Both the position numbers and the translations under genes were made by a program. From a virus, in IMG/VR virus record IMGVR_UViG_3300034158_000007, positions 1 through 64,000 of that record: DNA of 64,000 nucleotides. One strand, written 5' to 3'. The notes beneath the pieces were generated by a model. It was given only the letters and a program-made list of their open reading frames with translations. It did not search any database and was not told the DNA's origin. Positions 217-63,062 of the stretch are shown here, one piece after another. Every line of letters begins with the position of its first letter. Within the stretch, counting starts at the first letter, position 1.

Positions 217-2103
217 ATGATTCGTGACCTCGACACCGCAGCTGCTCCATCCGCTCAACAAGCTCCAACTAGCGCAACTGAATTCGTTCAACAAGCACCA
301 ACACAGGCACCTCAGATGACTCAACAAAATCAATTCAACGGTGGTATCGGTAACGTTAACTCGTTCTTCGAGCGTTCCGGTAAAACCCAAGGCGGCGATG
401 CCCGCTCCAGCGAAGCTCTGCAAATCTTCACTCGCCTGAAGGATCAAGCAGTTTCGCAACAAGACCTGGTTAACGATTTCCAGATCCTGCGCTTCGACCG
501 CGATCAGAACCAAGTAGGTTGGTCCTCGCTGGTTATCGCTAAACTGTCCACCATCGGTGGTCAGCCTGTTATCGCTATCCGTCCACTGATCATGCCTAAC
601 CCAGGCATCGAACTGCCAGCCACCAAGCACACTCTGCAAGTTGGCCTGCATCAAGAAGTGATCGAGTCGGAAGTAGACGTCGCTACCGTATTCAGCAAGC
701 AGTACTTCGCTCGTCTGAAAGCGTTCGTCCAAGCATCGTTCGGCAAGCCGACTGCTGAAGTCGTACTGTCCGGTGCATACCCGATCCCAGCCGAGTTCGA
801 TCTGAAGACCGGCGAACTGCAACTGCGCGACCTGCTGATCAAATCGGTAAACGCCTGTGAAGACTTCCTCCGTCGTAAGTCGGGTGAGTCGCCATTCACC
901 GTTGGTATCCTGAAAGGTCAAGAAGAAAGCCTGGCCGCTAAGATCGATACCCGCGATCAACCAGTTCACGACGTTCTGGGTAACCCAATCCGTTCCGACG
1001 TTGTTGTAAGCATGCAGCGCGTTAAGCGTCACGGTCAGGTTCAAGAGAACGAGTTCTACGAAGCTGACGTTAAGCTGAACCAAGTCTCGATGTTCACCAA
1101 CCTCGAGTATCAGCAAACTCAAGTAGCTGCTCCGGTATTCGGCCAACAGGCTCAAGCACCAGTAGCTCCATGCGTTGCAGCAGTAGTTGTAACTGACGTT
1201 CGTCAGGCTGACTGGATCAAAGCCAACACTCCAGAAATGTACTGGTTGGCAATGACTAACGCCTACCGTTCGACTCACGGCCACGCTTGGGCTCGCCCAT
1301 TCGTTCCACAGACCGGTAAAGTGAAAGACCTGCGTGACATCGGTGCACTGGGCTACCTGAGCCAGCTGCAAAACAAGATCGATACCAAAGCTGCATCTTT
1401 CGATGACGCTCAGTTCGGTCAACTGATGCTGCAAATGGTACAGCAGACTCCTGTGTTCCAGATCGACCTCAACCGCATGGGTGAGAACGGCGCAGTAGAC
1501 GGCATGCTGTTGGATGCCGGTGGTGGTGCAAACCAAGTCAAAGCAGTGCAAGCAATCGCTCGCCAGATCAGCAACCTGATCGGTGGTGACTTCAAGCAGT
1601 TCTTCGACTACACCACTCAGCCTATCCTGATCAAGACTGGTCAGATCGTAGACCTGGGCTACTACTTCGACGAAGACGGTGAGAAACGTGACCGTCGTGA
1701 ACTCGACAACCTGGGCGCTCTGAACGCCGCTGAAGGTAACGTGCAAGAATGGTGGGGCTACTACGGTTCCCAGCAGAACACCGCACTGCACCCAGCTGTA
1801 CGTAACAAGCAGTCCCGTAACTACGACCGTCAGTACCTCGGCGCAACCGTAACTTACACCGGCAAAGCCGAACGTTGCACCTTCAACCCGAAGTTCATCG
1901 AAGCTCTGGACGCTGCCATCTGCGCAGCTGGCCTGCAAGTGACCATGGACAACACTTCGGTGCTGAACAACGGTCAGCGCTTCACCGGTAACGGTGCAAT
2001 CCAGCAGTTCATGGTTAACGGTCAGGCTAACGTTTCGACCTTTAACGGTGGCCAGCAGTCCTACGGTGCACAGCCAGGCGCTGGTGTTGGTTCGTTCTAC
2101 TAA
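217..2103 (+). CDS. chmA: Chimallin, major phage-nucleus shell protein (ChmA, phiKZ gp54-like)
   Basis: ChmA self-assembles into the single-layer protein lattice that encloses replicating phage DNA and excludes host nucleases. The 628-residue product matches the 201phi2-1 shell protein (gp105, about 631 aa) closely as I remember it: a Q/A/P-rich disordered N-terminus (about residues 1-45), then FFERSGKTQGGDAR, ILRFDRDQNQVGWSSLVIAK, STHGHAWARPF, NYDRQYLGATVTYTGKAERC and a C-terminus ending SFY. The flexible termini are the segments that lock neighbouring subunits together in the known structures. The start is preceded by an AAAGGAAA ribosome site. The gene is monocistronic, with an early promoter in front and a UUCG hairpin terminator behind, which suits an abundant early protein. 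Confidence 0.97.
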   Translation: MIRDLDTAAAPSAQQAPTSATEFVQQAPTQAPQMTQQNQFNGGIGNVNSFFERSGKTQGGDARSSEALQIFTRLKDQAVSQQDLVNDFQILRFDRDQNQVGWSSLVIAKLSTIGGQPVIAIRPLIMPNPGIELPATKHTLQVGLHQEVIESEVDVATVFSKQYFARLKAFVQASFGKPTAEVVLSGAYPIPAEFDLKTGELQLRDLLIKSVNACEDFLRRKSGESPFTVGILKGQEESLAAKIDTRDQPVHDVLGNPIRSDVVVSMQRVKRHGQVQENEFYEADVKLNQVSMFTNLEYQQTQVAAPVFGQQAQAPVAPCVAAVVVTDVRQADWIKANTPEMYWLAMTNAYRSTHGHAWARPFVPQTGKVKDLRDIGALGYLSQLQNKIDTKAASFDDAQFGQLMLQMVQQTPVFQIDLNRMGENGAVDGMLLDAGGGANQVKAVQAIARQISNLIGGDFKQFFDYTTQPILIKTGQIVDLGYYFDEDGEKRDRRELDNLGALNAAEGNVQEWWGYYGSQQNTALHPAVRNKQSRNYDRQYLGATVTYTGKAERCTFNPKFIEALDAAICAAGLQVTMDNTSVLNNGQRFTGNGAIQQFMVNGQANVSTFNGGQQSYGAQPGAGVGSFY

Positions 2104-5667: not shown

Positions 5668-6279
5668 ATGATGCAACAAGCCTACGGCGTTGACCTGATG
5701 GACATCGCTGCTGGCGGTTTTCTTGATAACTCCACCACGAGCTGGATTCAAGACAGAACTCAAGCTCTTATGAGTACCGTCAGTGCAACAACAGCAGGAT
5801 GGTTTAACAAAGCCCGAACGTTCTACCAGACCATCACCGAAACTGATGCTGTGCAGGCATTGCGTAACCTAACCGCTAAGTCCGATCTTAGTTGGAAAGG
5901 TAACAACATTCACCTGTGTAATAGCCTCAGTCAGATTCAGTCTTCTAACCCGGTACAACAGCGCTATTTGATGGCTAACCCCGAGTTACGTACACTGTAT
6001 CTGAATCAGTCGTGTGAAGGTTTCGCCGGTTCGTACATTAACCTGCAAGGCAATGCAGTCGGTGTAGCTCAGTACGATTATCGTCGAGTAACTGACGGCA
6101 TGTTGCTGGTGCAACCAGATCACGTTGAATGGAATGATTTCTATGAGAACATCCCGGACAATGATAAAGAACTGGAGCTGTACGAGAAAGCTGACATGAT
6201 CCGTAACTGGAACTTGGTGAACGTAGCTTTGGATGCCAACGAGATGGACCCAAGTTCTCCGATCGGTAACTTGCTCTAA
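5668..6279 (+). CDS. Hypothetical protein, 203 aa
   Basis: Not recognised. The start is ATG at 5668 or the adjacent ATG at 5671, with AGGGGAATG upstream and three bases after the preceding stop. Mixed alpha/beta composition with a central segment rich in Q, N and S (about residues 90-115) and an acidic C-terminal third (DNDKELELYEKADM). No membrane segment. It shares the early promoter at 5520 with the 41-aa gene and is followed by a hairpin. Confidence 0.75.
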   Translation: MMQQAYGVDLMDIAAGGFLDNSTTSWIQDRTQALMSTVSATTAGWFNKARTFYQTITETDAVQALRNLTAKSDLSWKGNNIHLCNSLSQIQSSNPVQQRYLMANPELRTLYLNQSCEGFAGSYINLQGNAVGVAQYDYRRVTDGMLLVQPDHVEWNDFYENIPDNDKELELYEKADMIRNWNLVNVALDANEMDPSSPIGNLL

Positions 6280-9161: not shown

Positions 9162-10299
9162 CCGGACTAAAAAGCCTGGGGTATTTACATACATTAGTTT
9201 GGGCGATGTTCATTTGGGACATCGCTTAACTCCAGCTGCGCACATCATCCGTAATTTGACCCGATTGATTACGGATGATCTGTTAAAGACATTGGACATG
9301 GTCATCATTACTGGTGATCTGTTTGACCGTCAGCTTCAAAACGGTGATGACGATGTTAACGCGATCAACCGTTGGATCACCAACATGCTTTATAAGTGTG
9401 CAGCCTATGACGTACACCTTTATATAGTCGAAGGGACACCGAGTCATGACCGTAAGCAGTCTCAGTTCTTTGTTGAACAGAAAGCTAACGCCAATATCCC
9501 GGTAGACCTGCACTATGCAAAGGAACTCGAGATCCTGTACAACGAGCGCTTTGACGCTCATTTCCTTTTTATCCCTGACAAATGGAATCCCTCTACCGCT
9601 GTAACTCTGGGTCAAGTAAAAGCCAAGATGAAAGAGCTTGGTATTGAGAAGGTGGACTTCGCTGTAATGCACGGAGCATTCACTTATCAGTTACCGAGTA
9701 TCGTTGAGGAACCAACCCACGATCAGTTTGAATACTTGTGCTTGGTGAAGCATCAAATCCTGATTGGTCACGTACACAACATGACAGTCTATGAGGATAA
9801 GATCTACGCTGCTGGATCGTTTGATCGGATCTGTCACGCTGATGAGATCCCTAAAGGCATGTTCCACTTCACGGTTAATAAGGATGATACCTTTACCGCG
9901 ACCTTTATAGAGAACAGTCACGCTAGGCAGTACGTAACTTGGGACGTGCATGGCATGGATACCAAGGAACTTAACCACGCTATCAAAGAACGCTTGAAGG
10001 GGATAGCTAAAGGGTCGTCTATTCGATTGAGATGTGAACCCGGTGATGTGGCTAATGGAGACATTGATTCCTATCGTCGTGAGTATCAAGCTTACGATTG
10101 GCAGATCACTGTGGAAAAAGCTACTGCCAAGAAGAATACTGTGTTGGACTCTATTCGTAACTTCGACATGTCTGAGTTCGTCCCGTTGACTAAGGACAAC
10201 TTGTTAGAACTATTGATGTATGAGTTGGAGACGGCAGGGCACTCCGAGAGTACAGTGGAACGCTGTGCACGGAGATTTAAAGAACACATTAAGGGTTAA
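9151..10299 (+). CDS. SbcD/Mre11-like metallophosphoesterase (nuclease)
   Basis: Calcineurin-like phosphoesterase fold: metal-binding motifs SLGDVHLGH (D-x-H), IITGDLFDR (GD-x-x-D), then EGTPSHDRKQS in the place of the usual GNHD, and LIGHVHNM plus AAGSFDR (G-H-x-H). This arrangement is that of SbcD/Mre11 nuclease subunits, which process DNA ends with an ATPase partner. The start is uncertain: ATG 9151 or ATG 9139, both inside the end of the previous gene. The absence of a plain GNHD is notable, but GTPSHD keeps the histidine-aspartate pair. No SbcC-like ATPase was seen in the window. Confidence 0.85.
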   Translation: MKSDRTKKPGVFTYISLGDVHLGHRLTPAAHIIRNLTRLITDDLLKTLDMVIITGDLFDRQLQNGDDDVNAINRWITNMLYKCAAYDVHLYIVEGTPSHDRKQSQFFVEQKANANIPVDLHYAKELEILYNERFDAHFLFIPDKWNPSTAVTLGQVKAKMKELGIEKVDFAVMHGAFTYQLPSIVEEPTHDQFEYLCLVKHQILIGHVHNMTVYEDKIYAAGSFDRICHADEIPKGMFHFTVNKDDTFTATFIENSHARQYVTWDVHGMDTKELNHAIKERLKGIAKGSSIRLRCEPGDVANGDIDSYRREYQAYDWQITVEKATAKKNTVLDSIRNFDMSEFVPLTKDNLLELLMYELETAGHSESTVERCARRFKEHIKG

Positions 10300-10302
10300 C
10301 GC

Positions 10303-11130
10303 ATGTACCTCGTGGAAAGAGAAGTCGGTAAGATACCCGTTAGTATCGGAACCTCTCTTGCCTTTGAGGGTTACTTGGGGATTCATGAACAAAACCCTAA
10401 GCAACCAATTGACGTTAAATCGGTTAAAGAGATCTGGGTCAACCTTCGAACGTTGGCTCGGAATCTTTGGTCTGCTGTCCCCACCGCAGAAGTAGCGAAC
10501 CTCAACCCAGCTGCGGCTGTGGATGTACTCATGCAGGAGGTTCAAACTATTCCGGTTGCACTGGCACAAGCTGGAGCTAGGGCTAAGGTACGCTACTACA
10601 TTGCAGGTAAGAATGCGATGAAGTGGTTGTTCCCCAAAGCTATCTTCAAAGAAGCCAAGACGCCTAAGCAAATGGCATATGAAGTTTACGAACGCTATTG
10701 CGCTATTGAATTAGCTCAGCGTATGAAAGCCGAAGGTATTGATGTAATGGAGATTGATCGTAAGCCGCCTCCAAGCGATGGTACGGTAGCTCTACTTACA
10801 CACTACCCTCATGAACTCCTGTGGAAGGATAACTTTAATCGACTACTGTTGCTTGAATCCCACACCGGTAAGTTTAAGCCATGGCAGTTATGGTACACAA
10901 AACTGCACAATGTAAAAGAAGACACGCCTATGCCCTTCTCTAAGTTTACCCTTCAGGTATTCGGTGATGGCGTAGATCTAGTAGCTCAACCCCGAGCTAT
11001 TGTTGCACAACTAAGACTGATGGCACAGAACCGTAAGTGGTCTCCTGTCACAGCTGAGTCAAAGGTCTATCATGACATTAATACGCATGGCAGCAAAGAA
11101 CTCAAAGAAGCCTACGCTACGCTGAGATAA
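10303..11130 (+). CDS. Conserved-looking hypothetical protein, 275 aa
   Basis: Starts three bases after the phosphoesterase stop, so probably same operon. Largely helical with an Ala/Leu-rich middle (VRYYIAGKNAMKWLF...) and tryptophan-rich C-terminal half. No catalytic motif recognised. Position between a DNA-processing nuclease and an SSB-like gene suggests a replication or recombination role; inference from context only. Confidence 0.72.
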   Translation: MYLVEREVGKIPVSIGTSLAFEGYLGIHEQNPKQPIDVKSVKEIWVNLRTLARNLWSAVPTAEVANLNPAAAVDVLMQEVQTIPVALAQAGARAKVRYYIAGKNAMKWLFPKAIFKEAKTPKQMAYEVYERYCAIELAQRMKAEGIDVMEIDRKPPPSDGTVALLTHYPHELLWKDNFNRLLLLESHTGKFKPWQLWYTKLHNVKEDTPMPFSKFTLQVFGDGVDLVAQPRAIVAQLRLMAQNRKWSPVTAESKVYHDINTHGSKELKEAYATLR

Positions 11131-11184: not shown

Positions 11185-11931
11185 ATGTCGCAACAGCAAA
11201 ACTTTCCAGCACCAGTTCTGAACATCTTCTCCGTTATGTCCAACTGGATGTTCGCCGATCCAATGGACGGTAGCAAGAAGCGTCCAAGCATCCGTTTTGG
11301 TGTTTATGGTAACGTTCCACGTATTACCGTTAAGACTAACGTTGAAGGTGATATGAACCATGGTAAGATCGACTTCAACATGGACCTTGCAACCTTCGCC
11401 GTTGGTATGGCGTACCTGAACGATCTTGCTGAAGGCAAGCCAGACACCCCAACTGAAATGAAACTCGAGTATCAGGATGACTTCGTAGCCGGTAAGAAAC
11501 TGGATCGCGTGATGACCATCGCTACTTGGGTAATCGGTAAAGCTACCGATGGCCGTATCTACATGGCTGTAATCAGCTCGCAACAATCCCGGCCACGCAT
11601 CCGCTTCTTCTTTGGTCCTACTAAGTACCATAACCTGAAAGCTGGTGATGGTAGTGCATACGGTGCTGATAAGCTGTCCCAAGCTTACGCTCGTGGTATC
11701 GGTCGTTCGGTAGAGCCAATGGTTCTGCAACTCCTGACTGGTAGTGCATTCGATCCTAACGCCAAGAACGTTGCTAACCCAGCGAACTTCAATGGCGGTG
11801 CTGGTGGCGGTGGCGGTCAACAACGTCAAGGTGGCGGTGGTGGCGGTTACAACAATAACCAACAAGCTCCACGCCCTAAACCGGCTGGTGGTGATTCCTT
11901 CGACGCCGAACTTCCAGACTTCGGTTTCTAA
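11185..11931 (+). CDS. Putative single-stranded-DNA-binding protein (SSB-like tail)
   Basis: 248 residues with an SSB-like architecture: a compact N-terminal domain (about 1-185) rich in beta-like stretches and R/K/F residues, a linker of glycine, glutamine and asparagine (AGGGGGQQRQGGGGGGYNN), and an acidic phenylalanine-ending tip (SFDAELPDFGF) like the DDDIPF tail by which bacterial SSBs recruit partners. The N-terminal domain was not matched to a named SSB family, so the call rests on architecture and on its place among replication and transcription genes. Highly expressed-looking codon usage, similar to chmA. Confidence 0.6.
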   Translation: MSQQQNFPAPVLNIFSVMSNWMFADPMDGSKKRPSIRFGVYGNVPRITVKTNVEGDMNHGKIDFNMDLATFAVGMAYLNDLAEGKPDTPTEMKLEYQDDFVAGKKLDRVMTIATWVIGKATDGRIYMAVISSQQSRPRIRFFFGPTKYHNLKAGDGSAYGADKLSQAYARGIGRSVEPMVLQLLTGSAFDPNAKNVANPANFNGGAGGGGGQQRQGGGGGGYNNNQQAPRPKPAGGDSFDAELPDFGF

Positions 11932-12009
11932 TACCCTTTCCTAACTACGGTCATTGCGAGCAATCGTAATGGCTGTATGCCCTCTTGCTCAGTTCAGAGC
12001 CCAATAGAA

Positions 12010-12030
12010 ATTATTTCAAGTTTATATCAT
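12010..12030 (+). promoter_or_regulatory. phiKZ-type early promoter (variant TATATCAT)
   Basis: ATTTCAAG-TT-TATATCAT with the box at 12023-12030, nearly identical to the promoter at 5520. It lies upstream of the gp68-like gene and rules out the in-frame start at 11977. Confidence 0.65.
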
Positions 12031-12060
12031 TCAAGTGATGCACATAGAAGAGGTTCACGC

Positions 12061-13641
12061 ATGAAGTTCAGGGTCAGTAATGTCCAAGGTAGTGGTTTTA
12101 CAGAAGTTGCCGTTACGCATGGTGATGTAGAGCTAACTTGGTCTGCACGTGCTTACAGCAAAGTGAAATTGGCAGATCCTAATCGGGTCTTTAAGGAACT
12201 TAACGAATACCTCGAACAAGTGGATGAAGCTACTCATACCAGAATGTTCCAGTCCTACGAGGAGGTTCATAAGCTGTATCGATTGGGTTATGATCCATCG
12301 ATGATTGTAGCGTCTCTGGTGCACCACATCGGTGAGATCAACAAGCACCTGCCTATGGGTAAGCTGCGTCGTTGGTTGATGACTATTGGTAACCTGCATA
12401 TCCCTGCGGACGTGCAAGAGAGCATCACTCAGGACTCCCGCTATAACAAGCGTGAGCAGACTTACCTCAAAGCGGATTACATCAACATCGCAACTGAAGC
12501 ACTAGCTGCTCAAGCGTTGATCCCGATTTGGAGTGAGTACATGGATCAGTGTACGGACCAGGAACTCTATAAAGAGAACCACGTCGTAGGCTTGGTCAAT
12601 GAAACTGAGATGGCCAACTGGCCGATGGGTGAAACGGATCTGATGGGTGAAGAGATCCAAACGGTATTCGATAAGCTTGCAAGCTATATCAAGTACTGCG
12701 TGGATGGTGAACCTTTGAGCTTGGCTCGTGGGTTTGCGGGTATGAGTTCTACCGACGTGCGAGTGCTATTGCAGTCGAAGGTCTTGGTACGTCGTCTACC
12801 ATTGATCCCTCTGAATGATCCAACCAGCCACTCCATCGTAGCTAACATCTTCCGTTACGTGACTACCAACATGAATCCCCCAGAGCGTAGCACTGCGGAT
12901 CGAGTTGCGAAGAAACTACCAGAAGGTGGCGGTGGTGATGACGAGGATAAAACATCGTTCATCGAGTCTCACAAGACTAAAGGTCGCATCAGTCCAGGTG
13001 ACATCGAAGCGTTCAACGTGGATGCCATGGACTTCGAGTTGTTGGCTGAAGAAGTAGATCCAACCATCTGCAAAGAAAAACTGCGGCAGTGTATTAGCTG
13101 TGTACAACAGGTAGCAAGTCTTGAGATCCGTCCACACCAAATCCTGATTGCACAATGGGTAATGGCTAAGGCGTTTCCAGCACGAGCGTTCTATCACGTA
13201 TCTAAGTTGCCGGTGAACTATCTGTTGGCGACCAGTCAAGCGTTGCTATGGCACTGGGGTTTCAAAGACGTAGCCATCCTGATGCAGGTTGAGCCACTAC
13301 GTCACGGCGAACATAACTCGACTAACCAGTTGAGCCAAACTCGTCAAGGTTCGCGTATCGCAAATCGGTTCCGTCCACAGCTGGATGAACTGTATCCAAA
13401 CATGAAGCTTCAGAAGACTCCGCAAAACGGATCTGAGACACCTAAGCCTGAGAACATGGCCGGTCTAGCTATTAATAGCTGTAACCAATCCGTTCGCAGT
13501 TCTAACTGGGTGTATCACGGTCCAGATGCATTGTACGTTGAAGCCAATCAGACGATGCATAACCGCGTCCTTATGGTTCCTCAGACGATCAAGCATACGT
13601 TGACTGAAGTTGTAATCCATCTAGCTCAGATTAATCAGTAA
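12061..13641 (+). CDS. Non-virion RNA polymerase fifth subunit candidate (phiKZ gp68-like)
   Basis: 526 residues. In phiKZ the nvRNAP holds four beta/beta' pieces and gp68, a subunit of about 520 aa needed for promoter recognition. This gene has the expected length, sits right before the gp69-like gene and upstream of the beta and beta' C-terminal genes as in phiKZ, and begins with an AGAGG ribosome site behind an early promoter. The sequence is helical with a glycine/aspartate loop (EGGGGDDEDK) at about 304-313. Two cysteine-containing stretches (CKEKLRQCISCVQQ) follow. Identity is inferred from synteny and length rather than from a motif. Confidence 0.75.
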   Translation: MKFRVSNVQGSGFTEVAVTHGDVELTWSARAYSKVKLADPNRVFKELNEYLEQVDEATHTRMFQSYEEVHKLYRLGYDPSMIVASLVHHIGEINKHLPMGKLRRWLMTIGNLHIPADVQESITQDSRYNKREQTYLKADYINIATEALAAQALIPIWSEYMDQCTDQELYKENHVVGLVNETEMANWPMGETDLMGEEIQTVFDKLASYIKYCVDGEPLSLARGFAGMSSTDVRVLLQSKVLVRRLPLIPLNDPTSHSIVANIFRYVTTNMNPPERSTADRVAKKLPEGGGGDDEDKTSFIESHKTKGRISPGDIEAFNVDAMDFELLAEEVDPTICKEKLRQCISCVQQVASLEIRPHQILIAQWVMAKAFPARAFYHVSKLPVNYLLATSQALLWHWGFKDVAILMQVEPLRHGEHNSTNQLSQTRQGSRIANRFRPQLDELYPNMKLQKTPQNGSETPKPENMAGLAINSCNQSVRSSNWVYHGPDALYVEANQTMHNRVLMVPQTIKHTLTEVVIHLAQINQ

Positions 13642-13651
13642 GAGGTTCCAC

Positions 13652-15334
13652 ATGCACAATTTCAACATGGGCGTTCAAGCAGGTATGGCTGGTAACTCCA
13701 AGATTCGTTTCGGCGAGTATGGCTTCCTTGGTGTCCAGACCGGTACTTATCAGGCGCAGTATCTGCGACCGTTTAAAAGTAACACTAGCCAACCTGTTGT
13801 AGATCAACTGCGTGAAGCTACCAACGGTGGCCTGAACTTGGGTGTCGGTGCTGTGCAAGAATTGGCTGCGGACGTAATCACCCCACAGGCAATGGTAGAA
13901 GGGGAAGTAATGATCCCTGAGAACTTTAACTCCCGTCGCTTTCGCATCATGGCACGTGTCTTCGAAGAGCATCCATTCATTCGTGGTACCACCACGCAAC
14001 GAGTCTTCTTCGGTTATTCGGATCACTGTGATGTAACACTGGCATCGGGCCTGATCGATCCGAACATGCGGATCTACTTCAACTCGGAAACCATCATCAC
14101 TGAGTCGATCATCAATACGCCATCTGGTCCACAGTCCCAGGCTAAGATCATCGGTTCTAACCAAATCATCTCCCCGGTGAATATGGTTGGTGGTAACAAT
14201 GGCATGTTCGCTAAGCCATCCAGCTTCTTGATCCGTCCAGAAGATAACTTCAACCTGATGCAGACCAAGGCAGTTGCCAAGAATCTGCGTGACACAGGTC
14301 TGGTCGATGTTCATATCGATTCGTCGTACGATACTCGTTCGATGGTTGGTGAAGGTGGTAGCTTCAAGTATTCGATGCGTAAGGATACTTCTCCGGTTCG
14401 TTATCTGTCGAGTTCCTTGAACGCATATCAACATGCGCGTAAAGAATACAACTCGTCGATGCATGACACCGATGACATCCTGTTCAACCGTGGTACGGAT
14501 TCTGCTGAAGTGCTCTTTGGTGAAGCGGCCTCCATGTGTCGTAACAGTTCTATCACCAGCAACACTTTCCTCGGTGTACTGCGTGAACACACTGGCTTCA
14601 TGGAACGTGGTTACGTTACTTGGGGTGAACTGTCGGGTCTGTTCCCAGAACTGTTGAACTCGCAGTGTGCTAAGTTTGCAATGGACGATGGCCAAGCAAT
14701 CCGTAAAGTGTCTCAAGCTCACCAGTCTCAAAACTGGAACGGTGCAGACTACACTTCCATCGGTGCTTCGCTGTTGGCTCAAACTATTCCATCGATCATG
14801 ATGGATACGTTCTTCCGTCAAGTATCCTTCGCGGTAACTAACGGTAACGGTCCTAACGAATACCTGTTCGAGATCCACCCAGGTGCAACTGCCAGTATCA
14901 TTAAAGGTATTGACATGCGCCCTTACGTGATGGAATTGGAACGTCGAATTAAAGTGGACGTGCTCAACAACATCACCCGTGGTAACCAACTCCCATTCCG
15001 TATCTCGATGATCTCGGACTTGGCTGGTGAATCTGTAATCGATATCTCTATCGGTGCAGAGCAGCCAGAACGTTTCGTTGCTCCAACGTTTGCGGATAGT
15101 TTGTTCTCTCCGGTCATCACACGTAACCATCAGCTGTCTGGTGAGATCGCTAACGACATCACTTGGCTTGTTAAGCAGGTTATCGATGGTGAATCTGCTG
15201 CAATGCCACAACAGCAAGCTCAACAAGTTTACACTGGTTACCAACACCCTATAGCACCAGCTGCACAATTCAATCCACAAGCATTCAATCACACCGGAGC
15301 TGCGAACAATGTCGCCAATCTTGGACTGCTATAA
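13652..15334 (+). CDS. Phage-nucleus protein import factor candidate (phiKZ gp69 / Imp1 / PicA-like)
   Basis: 560 residues, with glycine- and asparagine-rich termini and a C-terminal Q/P/A-rich tail. In phiKZ the gene directly after gp68 encodes gp69, reported as the shell-associated factor needed for import of phage proteins into the nucleus (Imp1; PicA in phiPA3-type phages). The same order is found here: gp68-like, this gene, another ORF, then the beta and beta' subunits. No enzyme motif was seen. Codon usage is strongly biased and similar to chmA, suggesting high expression. The call depends on synteny and on my memory of those papers. Confidence 0.7.
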   Translation: MHNFNMGVQAGMAGNSKIRFGEYGFLGVQTGTYQAQYLRPFKSNTSQPVVDQLREATNGGLNLGVGAVQELAADVITPQAMVEGEVMIPENFNSRRFRIMARVFEEHPFIRGTTTQRVFFGYSDHCDVTLASGLIDPNMRIYFNSETIITESIINTPSGPQSQAKIIGSNQIISPVNMVGGNNGMFAKPSSFLIRPEDNFNLMQTKAVAKNLRDTGLVDVHIDSSYDTRSMVGEGGSFKYSMRKDTSPVRYLSSSLNAYQHARKEYNSSMHDTDDILFNRGTDSAEVLFGEAASMCRNSSITSNTFLGVLREHTGFMERGYVTWGELSGLFPELLNSQCAKFAMDDGQAIRKVSQAHQSQNWNGADYTSIGASLLAQTIPSIMMDTFFRQVSFAVTNGNGPNEYLFEIHPGATASIIKGIDMRPYVMELERRIKVDVLNNITRGNQLPFRISMISDLAGESVIDISIGAEQPERFVAPTFADSLFSPVITRNHQLSGEIANDITWLVKQVIDGESAAMPQQQAQQVYTGYQHPIAPAAQFNPQAFNHTGAANNVANLGLL

Positions 15335-16661
15335 CTCTATCCTCACTGCCTTCTCTCTGGCAGCCGATGATGAAGGTCTGATCTCTCAGGTTCATCCAAC
15401 CGGTACTCTGGTACCACTGAAAGTTGAGGGGCGCCGGTTGGTGCTCCCAACCAAAGCATGGCAACGTAAAGGCTATGGTGAAGACTATCTGCCTTTCCAC
15501 CCAAGCTGTGAAGTGATGTCCCGTGAAGGTACGTCGCCTGTAATGCAAATGCTCCAGCGTCAAGCCAAAGCTGTATTGGCCCATGCGCTGGTATCAATGG
15601 GTGGTAGTCTGTTGGCCGTAGCCGTAGACAAAGAAACCCACAAGGATCTTCCACTGGAATGCAGTGCGTTCCTGAAGAAGCTCTCCAATGCCGATAAGAA
15701 CACCAAAGAACTCTTCGATAAACTGATCGGTGCTGCGGTTAAGAAGAACCGTCTGCTGACTGTGTATCTGAAGAACGGTGGTACTTATGAAGGTAAGAAG
15801 GTTAACCGTTCGGCGATCATTCGATTCCCGATTCTGGAAGACCTGCTCTCCGACGCCAAAGATCCGCTGGGTGTTGTGATTCCGAAGAAGCAACGTCCTA
15901 CTCTGGTAGCGTTGTTCCAACTGCTAGTTCCTAATGGCGATAAGGCTGAGGAATATAGCTTCGGTACTACCGCACGTGTGGCTCCATATCTGCTGTCGTT
16001 GCTGAACGCTTATCACAAGACTGCATCCGTGATGAACGTATTGATCGAGCAGTATGCAGATAAACTGCACATCCCGGTCAAAGCTATTGATCTTTACGAG
16101 ATGAGTGTCATCGAAACGATCACCAAGCACTTTAGCGATATCCCACCTTACTCCGGTAACGAGGGTGCAACCAATGAGCAACCTGCTGAAGCACATGAAA
16201 CTGTGGCCGTGGCTAAGAAAGCTGCTGCTAAAGTAAATGCTGCTCCTGTAGCTAAAGTTGTTCAGGCTAGTCGTGATGGTAAGTCGGCTACGTTGGCACC
16301 GGTAGAGACCACTGTAACAACTGGTCGTCCAGCTGCATCCATGGCTGACTTCATGAACGCTACTGCACCACAACCTGCTCAAGTAGGTTTCGGTCAACAG
16401 CCGCCTCAACAGTTGAACACTGGTTTCACGCCGGTGACTTTCAACCAGCCACAGCAACCAGCCTATGCGCCGGTTAGCTTTGCACCACCTGCACCACAGT
16501 ACGGTTTCGCTACACCATCGAGTCCATACTCGCCTGCTCCGGTAGGCTTGCCAACTTGGATGGGTGGTCAACCTACTCACAACCCAGTTCCACAGAACCC
16601 CTTCATGCGTGCAACACCAAGCAGTATCGCACAGGGTAATGGTTCCACTGGTCTGATCTAA
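15309..16661 (+). CDS. Protein with disordered P/Q-rich C-terminal tail (phiKZ gp70 position)
   Basis: 450 residues. The ATG lies within the last 26 bases of the gp69-like gene, so translation is probably coupled. Residues 1-290 look globular and helical. About 291-340 are Ala/Lys-rich, and 350-440 are a low-complexity tail of P, Q, A, F and Y (FGQQPPQQLNTGF..., FNQPQQPAYAPVSFAPPA), similar in flavour to the termini of ChmA and the gp69-like protein. No enzymatic motif. Co-expression with the import factor makes a role at the shell or with polymerase plausible but unproven. Confidence 0.72.
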   Translation: MSPILDCYNSILTAFSLAADDEGLISQVHPTGTLVPLKVEGRRLVLPTKAWQRKGYGEDYLPFHPSCEVMSREGTSPVMQMLQRQAKAVLAHALVSMGGSLLAVAVDKETHKDLPLECSAFLKKLSNADKNTKELFDKLIGAAVKKNRLLTVYLKNGGTYEGKKVNRSAIIRFPILEDLLSDAKDPLGVVIPKKQRPTLVALFQLLVPNGDKAEEYSFGTTARVAPYLLSLLNAYHKTASVMNVLIEQYADKLHIPVKAIDLYEMSVIETITKHFSDIPPYSGNEGATNEQPAEAHETVAVAKKAAAKVNAAPVAKVVQASRDGKSATLAPVETTVTTGRPAASMADFMNATAPQPAQVGFGQQPPQQLNTGFTPVTFNQPQQPAYAPVSFAPPAPQYGFATPSSPYSPAPVGLPTWMGGQPTHNPVPQNPFMRATPSSIAQGNGSTGLI

Positions 16662-16722: not shown

Positions 16723-16989
16723 ATGTCCCATCCAAACAATCTAAGCGTAGACTATCCATGCGCAGGTGATACATGGCGCAACGCCGAAGATCAAAACTGC
16801 TTAACGGTTACAGGTGTTACGCCGTCTGGTGTTATCTACTACATGAAAGGTTTGAACTTTGGTAGCGTGAAGAAGCACACCGCTTCACTGGGTGCATTTC
16901 AAGAAGAACTGAAGCGTTACGGTTTGGGGATTCCCCATTATGCCACCGATGAATACATCAAGACCTATGGCGCGTTCAACCTTGCTTAA
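16723..16989 (+). CDS. Hypothetical protein, 88 aa
   Basis: AGAGGCG ribosome site before the ATG. Small soluble product with two cysteines (YPCAGDTW, DQNCLTVTGV) in a probable beta hairpin and a helical C-terminus. Its end overlaps by 14 bases the end of a convergent - strand gene. Function unknown. Confidence 0.7.
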   Translation: MSHPNNLSVDYPCAGDTWRNAEDQNCLTVTGVTPSGVIYYMKGLNFGSVKKHTASLGAFQEELKRYGLGIPHYATDEYIKTYGAFNLA

Positions 16990-17341
16990 GGGTGATGTAG
17001 TACTGCTGTAGCTCTGCGATAGCTTCAGGGTGTGGCTCGATATAGAACTCTGGTACACCGGTGCTGTAGGGGTCTCTCAGAGTCTTACCGAACTGGTTTG
17101 GATTGGTCATGCCATTAACTCTGGTCATTACCCAACACATCTCCAGACCATAGCCTTCATCTAAAAGGAAACCGCTAAAGTCACCTTCATATTGGTAGAC
17201 CTGTTCCGGTCGCAACGGTTTACGAACAGCGTACATAGTTTTGAGTTGAGGTAGATGTATTTCAATGAGGTGACGAAAGTCTTCTTCATAGAACATGTCT
17301 GGACCGGGTTGTTCCATTTGTTGCACGATTGTAAATGCCAT
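16976..17341 (-). CDS. Isolated reverse-strand hypothetical protein, 121 aa
   Basis: The only - strand gene in the first 24 kb. The reading frame is clean and gives a protein-like sequence: acidic, aromatic-rich, with YQYEGDFSGFLLDEGYGLEMCW in the middle and a helical end (EAIAELQQYYITLKQ). The start near 17341 is close to the early promoter region of the opposite strand. Function unknown; probably an accessory insertion between the gp70-like gene and the nvRNAP beta gene. Confidence 0.68.
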   Translation of the reverse strand: MAFTIVQQMEQPGPDMFYEEDFRHLIEIHLPQLKTMYAVRKPLRPEQVYQYEGDFSGFLLDEGYGLEMCWVMTRVNGMTNPNQFGKTLRDPYSTGVPEFYIEPHPEAIAELQQYYITLKQG

Positions 17342-17404: not shown

Positions 17405-17650
17405 ATGCAAGTTGTTGTACCTACAATGGAGGCGTGGTTGTTATACGAACAGAAAGCCGAAGGGCGTCGTGAACCGATCACATTGGACCGTGTTCTCCGT
17501 GAAGAATTACCTGAGGGTAAAATGTATGTAGAGGAAGGAAGCAGTACACTTTGGCATCGGGACGTTCAACAGAATGGTCCGACGTCAGTAGCTTATGCCG
17601 TTTACAATGCAGTAATGTCTGATTTTGAGGAAGCCATATGTTCGAGATGA
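17405..17650 (+). CDS. Small early protein, 81 aa
   Basis: First gene behind the early promoter at 17372, with TGGAGGTG before the ATG. Acidic, with a helical N-terminus (VPTMEAWLLYEQKAEGRRE). The end overlaps the nvRNAP beta gene start by 13 bases, so the polymerase subunit may depend on its translation. Function unknown. Confidence 0.72.
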   Translation: MQVVVPTMEAWLLYEQKAEGRREPITLDRVLREELPEGKMYVEEGSSTLWHRDVQQNGPTSVAYAVYNAVMSDFEEAICSR

Positions 17651-19749
17651 AACGAGTAGCGCGAGAGATCAAATACCACTATGCCGGTAACGCAATTATC
17701 GATCCATGGTTTGGTGTTACTTCCGCAGCCCGTGGAGCTATGCTCTTGGGTCAGATTACTCAGGCTCCTGTTATTAAAGGCGCTGAACCACGTTGGTTCC
17801 AAACGGGTGCTGAACTTCGGTTCGGTGAACATTCATTCGACATGCGTATCCCAGAAGACGTTCAGATCCTGAGCGTAATGCGTAAGTATCCTACCGGTAT
17901 GGGTGGGGATGCAATCAAACATAACCCGGAGACCACGATCTTCTACGAACACTACTACGACGAGTTCAAAACCGTAGGCGTGTTGCGTGTACCAGAGTAC
18001 ATGAGTTTCCACCAGACGTTCGGCTTCCAACTGGAACGTAATAAGGAGGTATGGGAAAACCTGCATCCAGGTGCAATGATCCCTAAAGACACAATCCTCA
18101 GTAAGTCCAAAGGGCTTTCTAAAGATGGTCACTTCTGTGCAGGCATGAACGTACAAGCTGCGTTCTTTGGTCACCATGCCACCATTGAAGATGGATTCTT
18201 GATCTCCGATGAGATCCTTGAAGAGTTCGCACCACATGCTTACGGTACAGCTATCGGTAGTTGTGGGCGTAAGAGTTTCCTGTTGAATGCGTATGGTAAT
18301 AAACCATTCCCTGATATCGGTGAACGTATCCGTCCTGATGGTGTTGTGTTCGCAACACGAGACCTCGATGATGATCTGTCTCCAGCTGAAATGACTCCAC
18401 GTGCTCTACGTGAGATCGACCGGACATTCGACCGAGTGGTAATCGGTGAACCGGGTGCAATCGTTAAAGATATCAAGATCTATCGTGACGAGCGTCAGAA
18501 CCCAAGCTTTACTCCATCGGGTATGGAAACGCAACTCATGAAGTATTACGATGCCTTGTGCACGTATTATCGTGAGGTCCTCAAGTTCTACAACGGCTTG
18601 AAGCAAAAGCGTAAAGACCGTCTGCGTATTACAGATGAGTTTAACCAGTTGGTGGTTGAGGCTATGATCTATCTGCCACAAGCAGAAGGTCAGCGGAAGT
18701 TGTCGCGTATGTATCGTCTTGACCCGCTGGATGAATGGCGTGTAGAGATCACTTATGAGTCCTTGAAGGTTCCAGGTGGTGCTTACAAGATTACCGACTT
18801 CCACGGTGGTAAAGGTGTTGTCTGTAAGACTCTCCCTCGAAGTCAAATGCCGCGTGACGAATTCGGTAACGTAGCTGACGTAGTGATCTTTGGTGGTTCG
18901 ACCATGCGTCGTTCTAACTATGGTCGCATCTATGAACATGGGTTCGGTGCAGCAGTACGAGACCTCGCTCAGCGAATTCGTATTGAAGCTGATCTTCCAC
19001 GTCACGGTGAGTTGAAGCAAGCTGAGGTTAATGCCAGTCCGAAAGCCAACGATCAGGCATTCATCGAGTATGCATTCAATGAGTTCCAAGAACTCTGGTG
19101 GATCATCGCTCCAACCATGCACGAGTTGATGAAAGAACACCCTAACAAGCGAGAGTACATTCATGAAATAATGCGTCAAGGTTTCGCGTATGTGTTTACA
19201 CCGGTAGACGATACTACTCACTTGCCTACAGCAATGGACACCATCATCAATGGTAAGTTCTGCCCGAACTACACGCCGGTGACTTTCACTGACGTTACGG
19301 GTAAAGTGACTACATCTAAAGATAAGGTGCTGATCGGTCCACTGTACATGATGTTGTTGGAGAAGATTGGTGATGACTGGTCTGCTGTAAGCTCGGTTAA
19401 GGTTCAACAGTTTGGCTTGCCATCCAAGTTGAATAACTCTGACCGTAGTTCTACTCCAGGTCGTGAATCGGCTATTCGTTCTTTCGGTGAGTCTGAGACT
19501 CGTTCGTATAACTGCACCGTAGGTCCTGAGGCGACCATGGAGCTGCTTGATCAGACTAACAACCCACTGGCACACACCAGCGTTGTGAACTCCATCCTGA
19601 CGGCTAAGAAACCAACCAACATTGAACGTGCGGTAGATCGTAAGAAAGTTCCATTCGGTAACAGTCGTCCGGTTAGCTTGCTGAGTCACATGCTTCAGAC
19701 TCGTGGTATTGAGTTCAAGTATGTTCCGACTCCAGAAGCGTTTGTTTAA
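17638..19749 (+). CDS. Non-virion RNA polymerase beta subunit, C-terminal part (phiKZ gp71-73-like)
   Basis: Covers the C-terminal half of beta in the split nvRNAP. Visible signatures: HATIEDGFLISDEI (bacterial GYNFEDAILISE, about residues 182-195), YKITDFHGGKGVV (GDKMAGRHGNKGVV), STMRRSNYGRIYE (PSRMNIGQILE) and RESAIRSFGESETRSY near the end (GGQRFGEMEVWAL). These hold the lysines and the switch region that complete the active centre with beta'. In phiKZ the equivalent gene is interrupted by an intron-borne endonuclease ORF (gp72); here it is one uninterrupted 703-aa frame. The N-terminal beta half (gp123-like) is not in this window. Confidence 0.93.
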   Translation: MFEMKRVAREIKYHYAGNAIIDPWFGVTSAARGAMLLGQITQAPVIKGAEPRWFQTGAELRFGEHSFDMRIPEDVQILSVMRKYPTGMGGDAIKHNPETTIFYEHYYDEFKTVGVLRVPEYMSFHQTFGFQLERNKEVWENLHPGAMIPKDTILSKSKGLSKDGHFCAGMNVQAAFFGHHATIEDGFLISDEILEEFAPHAYGTAIGSCGRKSFLLNAYGNKPFPDIGERIRPDGVVFATRDLDDDLSPAEMTPRALREIDRTFDRVVIGEPGAIVKDIKIYRDERQNPSFTPSGMETQLMKYYDALCTYYREVLKFYNGLKQKRKDRLRITDEFNQLVVEAMIYLPQAEGQRKLSRMYRLDPLDEWRVEITYESLKVPGGAYKITDFHGGKGVVCKTLPRSQMPRDEFGNVADVVIFGGSTMRRSNYGRIYEHGFGAAVRDLAQRIRIEADLPRHGELKQAEVNASPKANDQAFIEYAFNEFQELWWIIAPTMHELMKEHPNKREYIHEIMRQGFAYVFTPVDDTTHLPTAMDTIINGKFCPNYTPVTFTDVTGKVTTSKDKVLIGPLYMMLLEKIGDDWSAVSSVKVQQFGLPSKLNNSDRSSTPGRESAIRSFGESETRSYNCTVGPEATMELLDQTNNPLAHTSVVNSILTAKKPTNIERAVDRKKVPFGNSRPVSLLSHMLQTRGIEFKYVPTPEAFV

Positions 19750-43196: not shown

Positions 43197-44411
43197 ATGC
43201 CATTACCAATTGTTAACTCCGCAATCCGTGGAGATGCAGGCGCTGTAGGTCGTGACCTAATGGCCACTGTACTGACCGCTGCAAAGTCGATGAGTTCCAT
43301 TAGCTCCCTTGCTGATGTAACCAAACCTTTGCGTGTTGAGCCAATCACCATCATCGATCAGTCTATTGCTGACCAACCTTACATCCAAGACCTGCTCAAG
43401 TTGAGCGTTAGCCTTTATGCCGGTTATTACCTGCAAGCTGTTAACATGGTATTCGGTGTAGGTAAGATCGATACCCTGAAAGTATTCGATACCCTTAACC
43501 CGGAACGTAGTGGCGCATCAGCCCTCGGTTTCGAGAACTTCCGTGCTGCGGTTTATGAACCAAGTACGTACGCTAATGGCATTCCATCTCTGGAAGCATT
43601 TTCCAAGCCTATGCGTCAGGGTCTCATTGCTGAATACTCGGAAGAGAAATATGTAGCCTCTTTGGAATATCATGCTTCTTTGGAAGCTGAAGATCCTAAC
43701 GCCGATAAGCGTGATCAGAAAGGTGGTAAGGAACCAGTTCACAGTATGTCGTCCAGTGATGGCGGCAAAATCTATGAAGCTGAGAACCTGGCTATCGGTA
43801 AACTGGTTAACGTTACTGTTAAGTCGGGCGGTGAAGAAGCTAAGCTCCCAGTGACCATCAAATTGATTCCTGCGGTTGTGCCTTCTGACACAATCACTCA
43901 TATCTTTACTGCTGGTGGACGTGATACTTGGGCGCACCGTCTTTTCCTTGTTAAGTCCGGTCAGATTAAATTCTGGCGTGACTTCGTAATGGGTCAGGAT
44001 ATGATCGATGCCCACATGAAGGCTTTGATGTCGGATCGTACCGGCGTTTATAAGACCATTTTGGATCGTCGTCGTAATAACGTTGCACAAGCTATTGCCT
44101 CGGGTCGACTGAGTCTGGCTGATGCCTCTAACATCGCTATCATTTCTTCGACTACCATGAAGCAATCGGCTAACACTCTCTACGCTAAGATGGATGACAT
44201 CAACGTGCGTAAGAAGTTCTTCGATAACTCGTACCTGTTGATGATGATGACTGTTGATGAGCGTTGGGGTCGTGTGACTATTTATCACCGTGGTGTGGAC
44301 ATGGCTTCTAGCTGGCGCATCGATGACATCAAAGTTGCTGAAAAGAACAAAGGTCAGGATATCACCGAGATCTTCAAAATGTTCAGCAAGCAAATGCACA
44401 CTAACATCTAA
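43197..44411 (+). CDS. Hypothetical late protein, 404 aa
   Basis: AGGAAGAGAGAGC lies before the ATG. Possible protease-type motif SLEAEDPNAD (about residues 160-169). A region of S/A/G and lysine (about 170-190) separates an N-terminal hydrophobic helical part (YIQDLLKLSVSLYAGYYLQAV) from a globular C-terminus. First gene of a tightly spaced run (12 to 10-base gaps) that leads to the inner-body genes. Function unknown; probably a virion or head assembly protein by position. Confidence 0.75.
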   Translation: MPLPIVNSAIRGDAGAVGRDLMATVLTAAKSMSSISSLADVTKPLRVEPITIIDQSIADQPYIQDLLKLSVSLYAGYYLQAVNMVFGVGKIDTLKVFDTLNPERSGASALGFENFRAAVYEPSTYANGIPSLEAFSKPMRQGLIAEYSEEKYVASLEYHASLEAEDPNADKRDQKGGKEPVHSMSSSDGGKIYEAENLAIGKLVNVTVKSGGEEAKLPVTIKLIPAVVPSDTITHIFTAGGRDTWAHRLFLVKSGQIKFWRDFVMGQDMIDAHMKALMSDRTGVYKTILDRRRNNVAQAIASGRLSLADASNIAIISSTTMKQSANTLYAKMDDINVRKKFFDNSYLLMMMTVDERWGRVTIYHRGVDMASSWRIDDIKVAEKNKGQDITEIFKMFSKQMHTNI

Positions 44412-60359: not shown

Positions 60360-61738
60360 TGTCTTATGATGCAACGCTACTTTACAAAGCAGCTGAACGA
60401 GTAATCACCGACGGCGAGGGTTACTACAACGTTCGTACTAACATTAACATCAGGGCTAATAAGAAGTGGATGAAGCCTGTGCGGTTTGATTACCTGCATT
60501 TGGCTCGTGACTACAGCACCGGTGCATTAGGAGACATTCGACAGATTGAATGCCTGATATTGTTGGGTGATTACACCTACGACCTCCTACCCTACCGTGA
60601 CGACATGCTGATTGACATCACAGAGATCCCTCTGGTCGAAGGCATGAGTGCTCGTAACTGGGGACGGCGTGCAGGGACGAAACGGTATAAAGCAATTCTT
60701 GACCTTAAGGGTGGGGATAACACAACCCTCACCAATAAGTCTGCTGCAATGTCTACCAAGGCTCAAATGAATCAGATGGGTATGAAGTCTGTAGTATTCA
60801 CTCTGGTTGATGAACCTTGTTACAAACTGATGATGACCAGTATTGGGACCACCCTACGGCAAATGACCACCTTGGATATGATCCTGTGGTTACACAACTA
60901 TTACTTCAAGAAACTCTTTGATGGTGATAGTGTCCGTATTGAGGGTGAGAACGTTTGGCGACAAGACTTTAATCCAGACATTCAACACCAAATCGCATTC
61001 CCCGATGGGATGATGCTTAAGGACGTTCCTCGGTTCTTACAGAACGATGAGGTCGGTGTGTATCCAACTGGGTTGGGGCGCTACATCCAAAACGGTCAGC
61101 TCTTTGTGTACCCGTTGTTTGATACGACTCGGTATAAGAAGAACAACCGGGTGCTTAACATCATCAACATGCCTAACGAACGTTTCCAAGGTACGGAGAA
61201 GACCTTCCTAGTTACTGACCAGTCGGTGACGATCATCGCTACGGGTAAGAACAAGGTTGTGGACAGATCCACAGGCGCTCGAATCCAAGATGGTAACGGT
61301 GCGCGCTTTGGTAATGCCAATACGATCCTGACGCAGGGACAAGTTAAAGACAACCGGTTGCTATTAGACCGTGCTACTAACGTGTACGAAGTTGCAGGTG
61401 ATGCTTTGGCGGGTGGTGTCAACAACATGCGCTGGGCGGACGAACGCTATAGCGCTAATCCATATAAACAGTACACGTTGATGGCGCAACAACAGGGGCA
61501 ACCTCTAGATGTTCAATGGTTCCGCAGTAATGTGGATCTGTTAGACCCAGGTATGCCTGTGCGGTATCAAACACTGGATGGTGAGACAGTCAAAACTTAC
61601 TATGGGACGTTATTGGGTGTAAACGATAACCGTATTCCTGTAGACCCCGGTAACAATACGTCTAAGTACGATGGCATTGCAACACTGAGCCTGTTCTTAG
61701 TTCGTCACACCGAGACTGATACTCCACCAGCCACTTAA
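60359..61738 (+). CDS. Virion structural protein candidate, 459 aa
   Basis: Start codon overlaps the previous stop. Mixed alpha/beta with a long beta-rich C-terminal part (PVRYQTLDGETVKTYYGTLL ... ). Tyrosine- and asparagine-rich. Six bases separate it from the final small gene of the run. Function not recognised. Confidence 0.75.
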   Translation: MSYDATLLYKAAERVITDGEGYYNVRTNINIRANKKWMKPVRFDYLHLARDYSTGALGDIRQIECLILLGDYTYDLLPYRDDMLIDITEIPLVEGMSARNWGRRAGTKRYKAILDLKGGDNTTLTNKSAAMSTKAQMNQMGMKSVVFTLVDEPCYKLMMTSIGTTLRQMTTLDMILWLHNYYFKKLFDGDSVRIEGENVWRQDFNPDIQHQIAFPDGMMLKDVPRFLQNDEVGVYPTGLGRYIQNGQLFVYPLFDTTRYKKNNRVLNIINMPNERFQGTEKTFLVTDQSVTIIATGKNKVVDRSTGARIQDGNGARFGNANTILTQGQVKDNRLLLDRATNVYEVAGDALAGGVNNMRWADERYSANPYKQYTLMAQQQGQPLDVQWFRSNVDLLDPGMPVRYQTLDGETVKTYYGTLLGVNDNRIPVDPGNNTSKYDGIATLSLFLVRHTETDTPPAT

Positions 61739-62567: not shown

Positions 62568-63062
62568 ATGGTTGAATTCGTAATTGGAACAGATATATTT
62601 CGTCAAGAAGGCGACCTGTATCTGATCACCGTCAACTGCGTTGGCGTTATGGGTAAAGGTCTGGCTAAGAGCTTTAAAGAGCTACATCCCGACCTCTACG
62701 AACGTTATCGTCACGACTGCAAGATGAAGATCATCACGATCGGTAATCCCGCAATCTATCAGGCGGACAATGGTAAACGCTACATGATGTTCCCTACCAA
62801 AGATCGTTGGCAAGATCCTTCGCTCCCTGACTACATCTCCGCTGGTTTACAGTGGATGGTCGATTCAGTGATAACGGAAGATGACGATGAAGGGGATATC
62901 GACCCTAGTTGGCGGATAGTCATTCCCCCTCTAGGTTGTGCCAATGGTGGCCTTAGCTTCGCGACCGTAAAAGAAACGATCAAGCTATTCGCCTCTCACA
63001 TGCCAAACCCAATCGTGGTGGTCTATCCACCATGGATGGAACAAGACGATAAATGGGATTGA
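62568..63062 (+). CDS. DarG-type macro domain protein (ADP-ribosyl-DNA/protein hydrolase candidate)
   Basis: 164 residues forming a complete macro domain: ITVNCVGVMGKGLAKSFK (N23 in TVNC; G-x-M-G-x-G-x-A), FPTKDRW with K78, and IPPLGCANGGLSF (GCANGG 123-128). This is the DarG/ALC1-like layout in which an asparagine and a lysine at FPTK bind ADP-ribose and remove it from DNA thymidine. DarG antitoxins neutralise DarT toxins, so a stand-alone phage copy, behind an early promoter, is a candidate anti-DarT defence factor. It could also hydrolyse ADP-ribose signals. No DarT-like toxin is adjacent. GGAGACC precedes the ATG. Confidence 0.85.
   Translation: MVEFVIGTDIFRQEGDLYLITVNCVGVMGKGLAKSFKELHPDLYERYRHDCKMKIITIGNPAIYQADNGKRYMMFPTKDRWQDPSLPDYISAGLQWMVDSVITEDDDEGDIDPSWRIVIPPLGCANGGLSFATVKETIKLFASHMPNPIVVVYPPWMEQDDKWD

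Follow-up and report, generated by a model that had tools for sequence, protein, structure and literature searches.

A PicA/Imp1 orthologue in a phiKZ-like phage record and the matching C-terminal tail of its neighbour gp70

The core gene block and the gene at 13652-15334

The window analysed here is the first 64 kb (64,000 nucleotides) of a 134,615-base virus record (IMG/VR IMGVR_UViG_3300034158_000007) of the phiKZ-like, nucleus-forming kind. It carries a core block in the order SbcD, gp66, ChmC (gp67), gp68, PicA (gp69), gp70, a small minus-strand gene and the nvRNAP beta subunit. The same order is found in 201phi2-1 and, with small insertions, in phiKZ, PhiPA3 and other GenBank relatives, as far as the fetched stretches reach. 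The features of the window considered here are the following:

217-2103, plus strand: ChmA (chimallin), the nuclear shell protein; 628 aa; PHROG 4795 ('nuclear shell protein'), E 5.2e-193; 65% identity to 201phi2-1 gp105
5668-6279, plus strand: orthologue of phiKZ gp59 and 201phi2-1 gp114; 203 aa, ending in DPSSPIGNLL; PHROG 3254, E 6.5e-56
11185-11931, plus strand: ChmC/Imp6 orthologue (phiKZ gp67), RNA-binding, with a Gly-rich tail; assigned by PHROG 3284 and position
12061-13641, plus strand: gp68 orthologue, a sigma-like nvRNAP subunit; PHROG 3209 match from residue 29
13652-15334, plus strand: PicA/Imp1 orthologue; 560 aa; 48.9% identity to phiKZ gp69 and 72.9% to 201phi2-1 gp125; PHROG 3141, E 1.4e-162; predicted fold
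15194-15331, plus strand: predicted disordered tail of PicA (residues 515-560; pLDDT below 50, alignment), with YQHPIAPA and the terminal NNVANLGLL
15309-15334, plus strand: overlap of the PicA end with the gp70 start; 26 nt, different frames
15309-16661, plus strand: gp70 orthologue (PhiPA3 gp64); 450 aa, predicted to be folded at about 1-290 and disordered at 294-450; PHROG 3520, E 5.3e-98; tblastn; AlphaFold
16188-16658, plus strand: predicted disordered tail of gp70 (residues 294-450), with SMADFM (344-349), PTW (415-417), NPF (430-432) and the terminal GLI
16976-17341, minus strand: small conserved block gene; 121 aa; PHROG 3455, E 1.5e-26; homologues at the same place in phiKZ, PhiPA3, Viktualia and Psa21
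17638-19749, plus strand: nvRNAP beta subunit, the right border of the block; PHROG 3295, E 6.1e-237

The open reading frame at 13652-15334 has an ATG start and begins 10 nt past the stop of the gp68-like frame (11977-13641), exactly where a reading made from the sequence alone (hereafter the sequence-only reading) had placed a 560-aa gene. That upstream frame is probably 28 codons too long, and a start at 12061 is preferred. With the PicA frame as a tblastn query, 124 phage records matched at E<=0.1 and 128 at E<=10; in 123 of them the match spanned at least 80% of the query. These near full-length matches mark the frame as a real gene and rule out chance as its origin. We take a 553-aa frame on the opposite strand (13631-15292) to be an antisense artefact, since the homologues belong to the plus-strand frame. 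When PicA was sought in 33 pattern-matched stretches of bacterial genomes, none encoded it.

The tblastn identities reached 72.9% with 201phi2-1 gp125, 71.6% with Viktualia, 59.5% with Phabio and 59.0% with PhiPA3 gp63, and the match to phiKZ gp69 covered 95% of the protein (residues 10-543, E 5e-156). PHROG 3141 is a family without a named function, and a Pfam search at E<=1 came back empty for both PicA and gp70. An alignment of 23 PicA sequences also placed the window gene with phiKZ gp69, and it lies in the core block between the orthologues of gp68 and gp70. The gp69-type identity and the phiKZ-like location, both proposed by the sequence-only reading, are thus borne out by homology, by a gene order shared with phiKZ and 201phi2-1, and by the predicted fold. 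We regard the orthology as near certain. Judged by orthology, the gene should encode the PicA/Imp1 of this phage and act as it does in the relatives, a reading to which we give a probability of roughly 0.9. The window protein is an additional member of an already known family, and the evidence for import as such comes from the work of others on phiKZ, PhiPA3 and Goslar.

The effective number of codons of PicA (39.7) is the fourth lowest among 17 chosen window genes, after ChmA (34.1), ChmC (36.2) and the frame at 43197 (39.6), so that the earlier description of its codons as highly biased is fair.

ChmA and the gp59 orthologue were followed by profile in the relatives. The ChmA profile and that of PHROG 3254 (gp59) each matched in 22 of 22 relatives and in none of 14 control genomes. 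The use of a profile matters for ChmA, since a single ChmA sequence as query reached 15 of the 22 relatives only. Four of these relatives (Goslar, PS1, AH04 and GXNNA8) were reached via gp70 and not via the PicA search; at their PicA place, PHROG 3141 matched at E 1.2e-46, 1.6e-76, 7.8e-75 and 9e-112, respectively. The window gene at 5668-6279 is the reciprocal best match of the 201phi2-1 frame ending at 60831, which is gp114, annotated as 'similar to phiKZ gp59'. We take phiKZ gp59, and with it this gene, to be Imp3. The gp59 orthologues of many phages carry DPTS followed by a short hydrophobic end such as PIGNLL.

The ChmC orthologues, in the window as in our loci L001-L003 and L006-L024, have a Gly-rich linker and, in most cases, an acidic C-terminal tip. 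In 6 of 22 GenBank phages the protein ends in D[IL]P[FWM], as in FDSDIPF. Ends of this kind resemble the docking tails of bacterial SSB. The name ChmC is given to phiKZ 067 in Table 1 of PMC12571901, and gp68 is called sigma-like in PMC13282480. A minus-strand gene of about 120 aa lies between gp70 and the nvRNAP beta gene in most relatives fetched. Its homology was checked for phiKZ, PhiPA3, Viktualia and Psa21, and the homologues in phiKZ (NC_004629.1, about 62673-63032, minus strand) and PhiPA3 (locus L003, about 9993-10352, minus strand) are absent from the feature tables seen.

Predicted fold and the behaviour of PicA in relatives

An AlphaFold model of PicA built on a 24-sequence alignment reached a mean pLDDT of 77.1 and a pTM of 0.77. 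Confidence fell below 50 at residues 1-13 and 515-560, and the commonest amino acids among the last 51 are A (10), Q (8) and N (5), in agreement with the low-complexity termini announced from the sequence. Against BFVD, the model matched 15 viral proteins over their whole length at E<=1e-24. Eight of these have a named source, in every case a phage, and they include proteins of Eowyn and Yaphecito, two phages that also carry a tblastn match to PicA. We take the 15 proteins to be PicA orthologues. The sequence-only reading had named a lack of structural similarity to gp69 homologues as its refutation, and these BFVD matches run counter to such a lack. One of the whole-length matches, A0A1L7N194 of Ralstonia phage RP12 (E 1.9e-30, TM 0.74), is named 'major capsid protein', a name that is probably wrong given this match.

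In the PDB, Foldseek found no match at E<=0.001 for PicA or gp70, and the best VIA Z scores for the two proteins, 5.2 (99 residues, rmsd 4.4) and 4.5 (98 residues, rmsd 4.7), lie within background. Matches of PicA residues 389-486 (approximately) to MHC-like folds, with Z of at most 4.4, were set aside as a common sheet-and-helix arrangement. A sequence-profile search of the PDB gave no match for PicA and one weak match for gp70 (3iee_A, E 0.016, profile positions 229-302). The authors of the PNAS study (PMC11087766) likewise report no structural homologue of PicA by Foldseek and DALI. They also saw no sufficiently large pore in their tomograms, and AlphaFold2 gave them no PicA oligomer with confidence, findings that bear on how folded proteins pass through the wall of the phage nucleus.

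What is known of the relatives gives the window gene its presumed role. phiKZ mutants able to exclude a toxic fusion carry their changes in gp69; the tagged PicA proteins of phiKZ, PhiPA3 and Goslar each gather in a single focus at the edge of the nucleus, on the ChmA shell; and nucleus development halts early in Goslar when PicA expression is blocked (PMC11087766). According to the same study, cargo recognition proceeds via surface residues, the cargo being apparently folded. The same gene was found by a separate selection as Imp1, and Imp3 is required for Imp1 function (reviews PMC13282480 and PMC12908238). Antisense silencing of phiKZ 069 abolishes plaques (PMC12571901); phiKZ 070 is absent from the table of top hits in the available part of that paper.

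It might be argued that the main role of PicA lies elsewhere, for example in serving the nvRNAP of the flanking genes, and that the import defects are secondary. The gene does lie between gp68, the sigma-like nvRNAP subunit, and the nvRNAP beta gene, its knock-down gives an RNA profile resembling nvRNAP loss, which the authors read as failed nvRNAP import (PMC12571901), and the PNAS authors leave room for other PicA roles (PMC11087766). However, single point changes in phiKZ PicA alter which particular cargoes enter, most of them with no other visible defect (PMC11087766), and we hold such a displaced role to be very unlikely.

Among the eight phiKZ positions with an import phenotype, the window PicA keeps the phiKZ residue at three (C126, P448 and E470) and differs at five (S299, Y367, S369, G371 and G468). 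This counts against the PicA reading, although these sites also vary among other orthologues. As five of the eight differ, the cargo specificity of the window PicA is probably its own.

The gp70 partner and the matching tails

The gene at 15309-16661 is the orthologue of gp70, by PHROG 3520, tblastn and alignment, and follows PicA directly. As the sequence-only reading had noticed, the two genes overlap, here by 26 nt. The same overlap is present in 201phi2-1, Phabio, PhiPA3, PS119XW, D6 and Noxifer, six relatives picked for overlapping annotations, and a gap takes its place in others such as FLC9 and Goslar. At the gp70 place of Viktualia (PV037725.1, locus L006, 5146-6468) an opposite-strand CDS is annotated, probably wrongly, since the plus-strand frame matches the window gp70 (50.5% identity).

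In the AlphaFold model of gp70, the first 290 residues have block means of 80-97, and residues 294-450 are mostly below 50. The tail had been described as rich in P, Q, F and Y. The description fits in part: the commonest residues of positions 284-450 are A 28, P 25, T 16 and Q 15, and F, Y and W together make up 7% of residues 291-450. Over 33 lineages the composition of the tail switches; P, Q or M abound in tails of the Pseudomonas type, and in five lineages (Totoro, PhiEaH1, pVa-21, PCH45 and SURPRISE13; loci L012, L014, L015, L020 and L136) the tail is of mixed charge, with about 30% K/R and about 30% D/E. The motifs SM.DFM, P.W and NPF occur in 9, 12 and 11 of 13 Pseudomonas-type lineages, as counted with loose patterns that were drawn post hoc and carry no chance control.

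In PhiPA3, gp63 (PicA) and gp64 (the gp70 orthologue) are located at the nuclear shell, and pulldowns of GFP-tagged gp2/ChmB recovered both proteins (PMC10643120). The suggestion that the partner acts with PicA at the shell therefore finds support in this relative, as well as in the tails compared below, and by analogy it is likely that PicA and gp70 act at one place. One of the two reviews (PMC13282480 or PMC12908238) counts Imp3 as a protein that the PhiPA3 shell study recovered, a statement that would also fit gp64/gp70; the available text of these reviews gives no gene numbers for the Imp proteins.

PicA and gp70 both have predicted disordered tails, and their last residues are alike within a phage, a match first spotted by eye in the two alignments. 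The end pairs, PicA first, include GLL/GLI, GLV/GLV, EGL/NGL, DYL/SYL, WKL/YRL, VGI/NGI and GSL/GSL. A G-x(0,1)-L-[LIVM] end occurs in 10 of the 547 proteins of 201phi2-1, PhiPA3 and phiKZ, and of the 154 families that these phages share, just three have it in at least two members, namely the gp59 family, PicA and gp70. As the motif was chosen after PicA and gp70 had been seen, only gp59 is surprising in this survey. The analyses that follow (lineage shuffling, the nine-genome ranking and the ranking of 2810 pairs) do not use this ending.

For the shuffling, 33 lineages (below 75% PicA identity) were drawn from 56 loci. Compared over their last three residues, PicA and gp70 of the same phage scored 3.58 for similarity, against -0.88 for shuffled partners (0 of 20000, z 5.7), in a procedure that ignores relatedness. 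The other 14 pairs among PicA, gp70, gp59, ChmC, gp68 and gp66 had z of at most 3.0, the figures in the full set being z 3.0 (51 of 20000) for gp70-ChmC and z 2.5 (163 of 20000) for gp68-gp66. The match was equally clear in the 13 Pseudomonas-type lineages alone (0 of 20000) and weaker in the 20 lineages outside that clade (371 of 20000), where PicA and gp68 gave a similar value (206 of 20000). As a control, the comparison was shifted inward by 3, 6 and 9 residues and gave z of 1.95, 0.33 and 0.50. The last residue is identical in 16 of 33 lineages and the last two in 8. An end in L, I or V is common to both proteins in 18 lineages, belongs to PicA alone in 3 and to gp70 alone in none, and is absent from both in 12.

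In nine genomes, including the window record, gp70 ranked first of 140 families in two respects: its end is the most similar to that of PicA (10.56, next 4.67), and its co-variation with PicA is the strongest (z 3.88, next 2.23). Among 2810 pairs formed from 78 families of the same genomes, PicA-gp70 also ranked first for similarity (10.56, next 4.78) and, with a small lead, for own minus other (5.78, next 4.74). The runner-up in the latter ranking joins the gp59 orthologue to a virion RNAP subunit (201phi2-1 gp233), and we take it to mark the chance level of that ranking. The gp59 orthologue was considered as a third member of the tail group for its GNLL-like end, and was dropped because it does not co-vary with PicA (z 1.2 in the shuffling and 1.40 in the nine-genome ranking).

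One explanation would be an ordinary PicA with a tail match devoid of function: the two disordered tails were alike in an ancestor and stayed alike. This reading bears on the tails only, and several lineages do share an ending of the type GLL/GLI or LL/LL. Relatedness was controlled for in a sister test, in which the gp70 tails were swapped between nearest relatives. Of 16 pairs, 7 favoured the true pairing, 4 went against it and 5 were ties (7, 4 and 8 in a finer sample of 19 pairs), a weak result that we regard as no more than suggestive and that leaves room for ancestral likeness. Four of the positive pairs, at above 50% identity, show parallel changes (FLC9/L127, PhiPA3/PS119XW, LucasX/L132 and phiKZ/L042). 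The PicA and gp70 ends are GLL and GVL in LucasX against GSL and GSL in L132, and GLL and GLL in PhiPA3 against GLV and GLV in PS119XW. The opposing pairs (PS1/AH04, sm033/L135, pVa-21/L047 and GXNNA8/L136) are mostly distant, with aromatic or polar ends in one or both proteins, except that PicA ends in V in sm033 and in L in pVa-21, and that the L047 ends are I and V. Such parallel changes in near relatives, together with the first rank of PicA-gp70 among the 2810 pairs for both similarity and own minus other, speak against ancestral likeness, to which we nevertheless assign a substantial chance, somewhat short of even.

The gene overlap could also dictate the PicA end. In many phages this end is encoded within the gp70-start overlap, so that the last PicA codons are constrained: gp70 has a nearly invariant Tyr8 in the alignment, whose codon (TAT A) asks for CTA-TAA in the PicA frame, and the terminal Leu would then be a by-product of coding. 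In keeping with this, the last PicA codon is CTA in 9 of 13 listed phages and GTA in PS119XW, and the non-overlapping FLC9, L127 and L049 use CTG or ATC. The overlap, however, leaves unexplained the matching end of gp70 itself, more than 1.3 kb downstream. Moreover, the match persists, more weakly, in the 18 lineages that lack the overlap (324 of 20000; 108 of 20000 in 19 lineages when phiKZ, whose longest frame would overlap, is added), and it holds at positions -2 to -4 in all 33 lineages (0 of 20000). We therefore judge a coding by-product to be improbable. Recent copying of DNA is not the cause of the match either, since in 13 phages PicA and gp70 share 31 identical residues within their last four positions, and 24 of these are encoded by different codons in the two genes.

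Small non-polar C-termini can serve as degradation or processing signals, and the shared ends might act in this way through a host or phage protease that sets the levels of both proteins. The early expression of both orthologues in PhiPA3 (PMC10643120) would suit such a control, but lineage-specific charged or aromatic ends are matched too (WKL/YRL, DYL/SYL), which a general host protease would not require. This explanation appears quite improbable to us.

A possible shared docking peptide and the closest known systems

We tentatively read the tails as docking peptides by which both proteins would bind one and the same partner at the site of import. The folded part of PicA (approximately residues 14-514) would handle cargo and shell. 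The disordered tails of PicA and gp70 would finish in C-terminal peptides of one type, which in the lineages possessing it ends in L, I or V, and both peptides would dock to one common pocket. gp70, with its folded domain and its long flexible tail, would thereby join PicA as a second component at this site. The receptor could be ChmA, ChmB, PicA itself or another protein. That the receptor pocket is shared is plausible, at odds of about one to two. In its fuller form the proposal, which we consider possible but rather doubtful, is a single PicA-gp70 import station whose twin C-terminal peptides sit in a common, co-evolving receptor pocket at the shell; pocket and peptides would diverge together, and the gp70 tail might serve as a tether or a selective mesh at the opening.

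Against the docking proposal we count the 12 of 33 lineages in which neither protein ends in L, I or V. In addition, a construct named 'PicA-sfGFP' still gives a focus on the shell (PMC11087766); if, as the order of this name would indicate, sfGFP is C-terminal, PicA can localize without a free C-terminus when the phage's own PicA is present. If the proposal is true, phage-specific identity would lie not in cargo recognition alone but also, at a second level, in the diverging pocket and peptides. Should gp70, furthermore, prove to be Imp3, the matching tails would link Imp1 with a protein on which its function is already reported to depend. Judged by its tail, gp70 comes closer to PicA than the rest of the 140 conserved families compared with it, which suggests a partner, a handful of residues that could be removed, and a search for the receptor by the same co-variation. 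We did not meet the PicA-gp70 tail match in the literature searched, which was available in part and excluded Kokontis et al. 2025 (the Imp paper), and we do not claim that it is unpublished.

The closest known systems are the PicA/Imp1 proteins themselves (phiKZ gp69, PhiPA3 gp63, 201phi2-1 gp125 and Goslar gp174). The window gene shares with them PHROG 3141, length, gene order and predicted fold, and is likewise encoded beside ChmA, the gp59 orthologue and ChmC, whereas its product differs in sequence, being 49-73% identical to the three Pseudomonas PicA proteins and about 21% to that of Goslar. For the partner, the counterpart is PhiPA3 gp64/phiKZ gp70, of which 15309-16661 is the orthologue (PHROG 3520); shell localization is known from PhiPA3, and the long tail is rewritten between lineages. 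The tails themselves invite a different comparison. SSB-type C-terminal docking tails consist of a disordered linker followed by a short peptide whose free C-terminus binds a pocket of the partner. The tails of PicA and gp70 have the same layout, so that the likeness would be one of working principle, whereas the sequences are unrelated and, in the present case, two different proteins share the peptide and the receptor is hypothetical.
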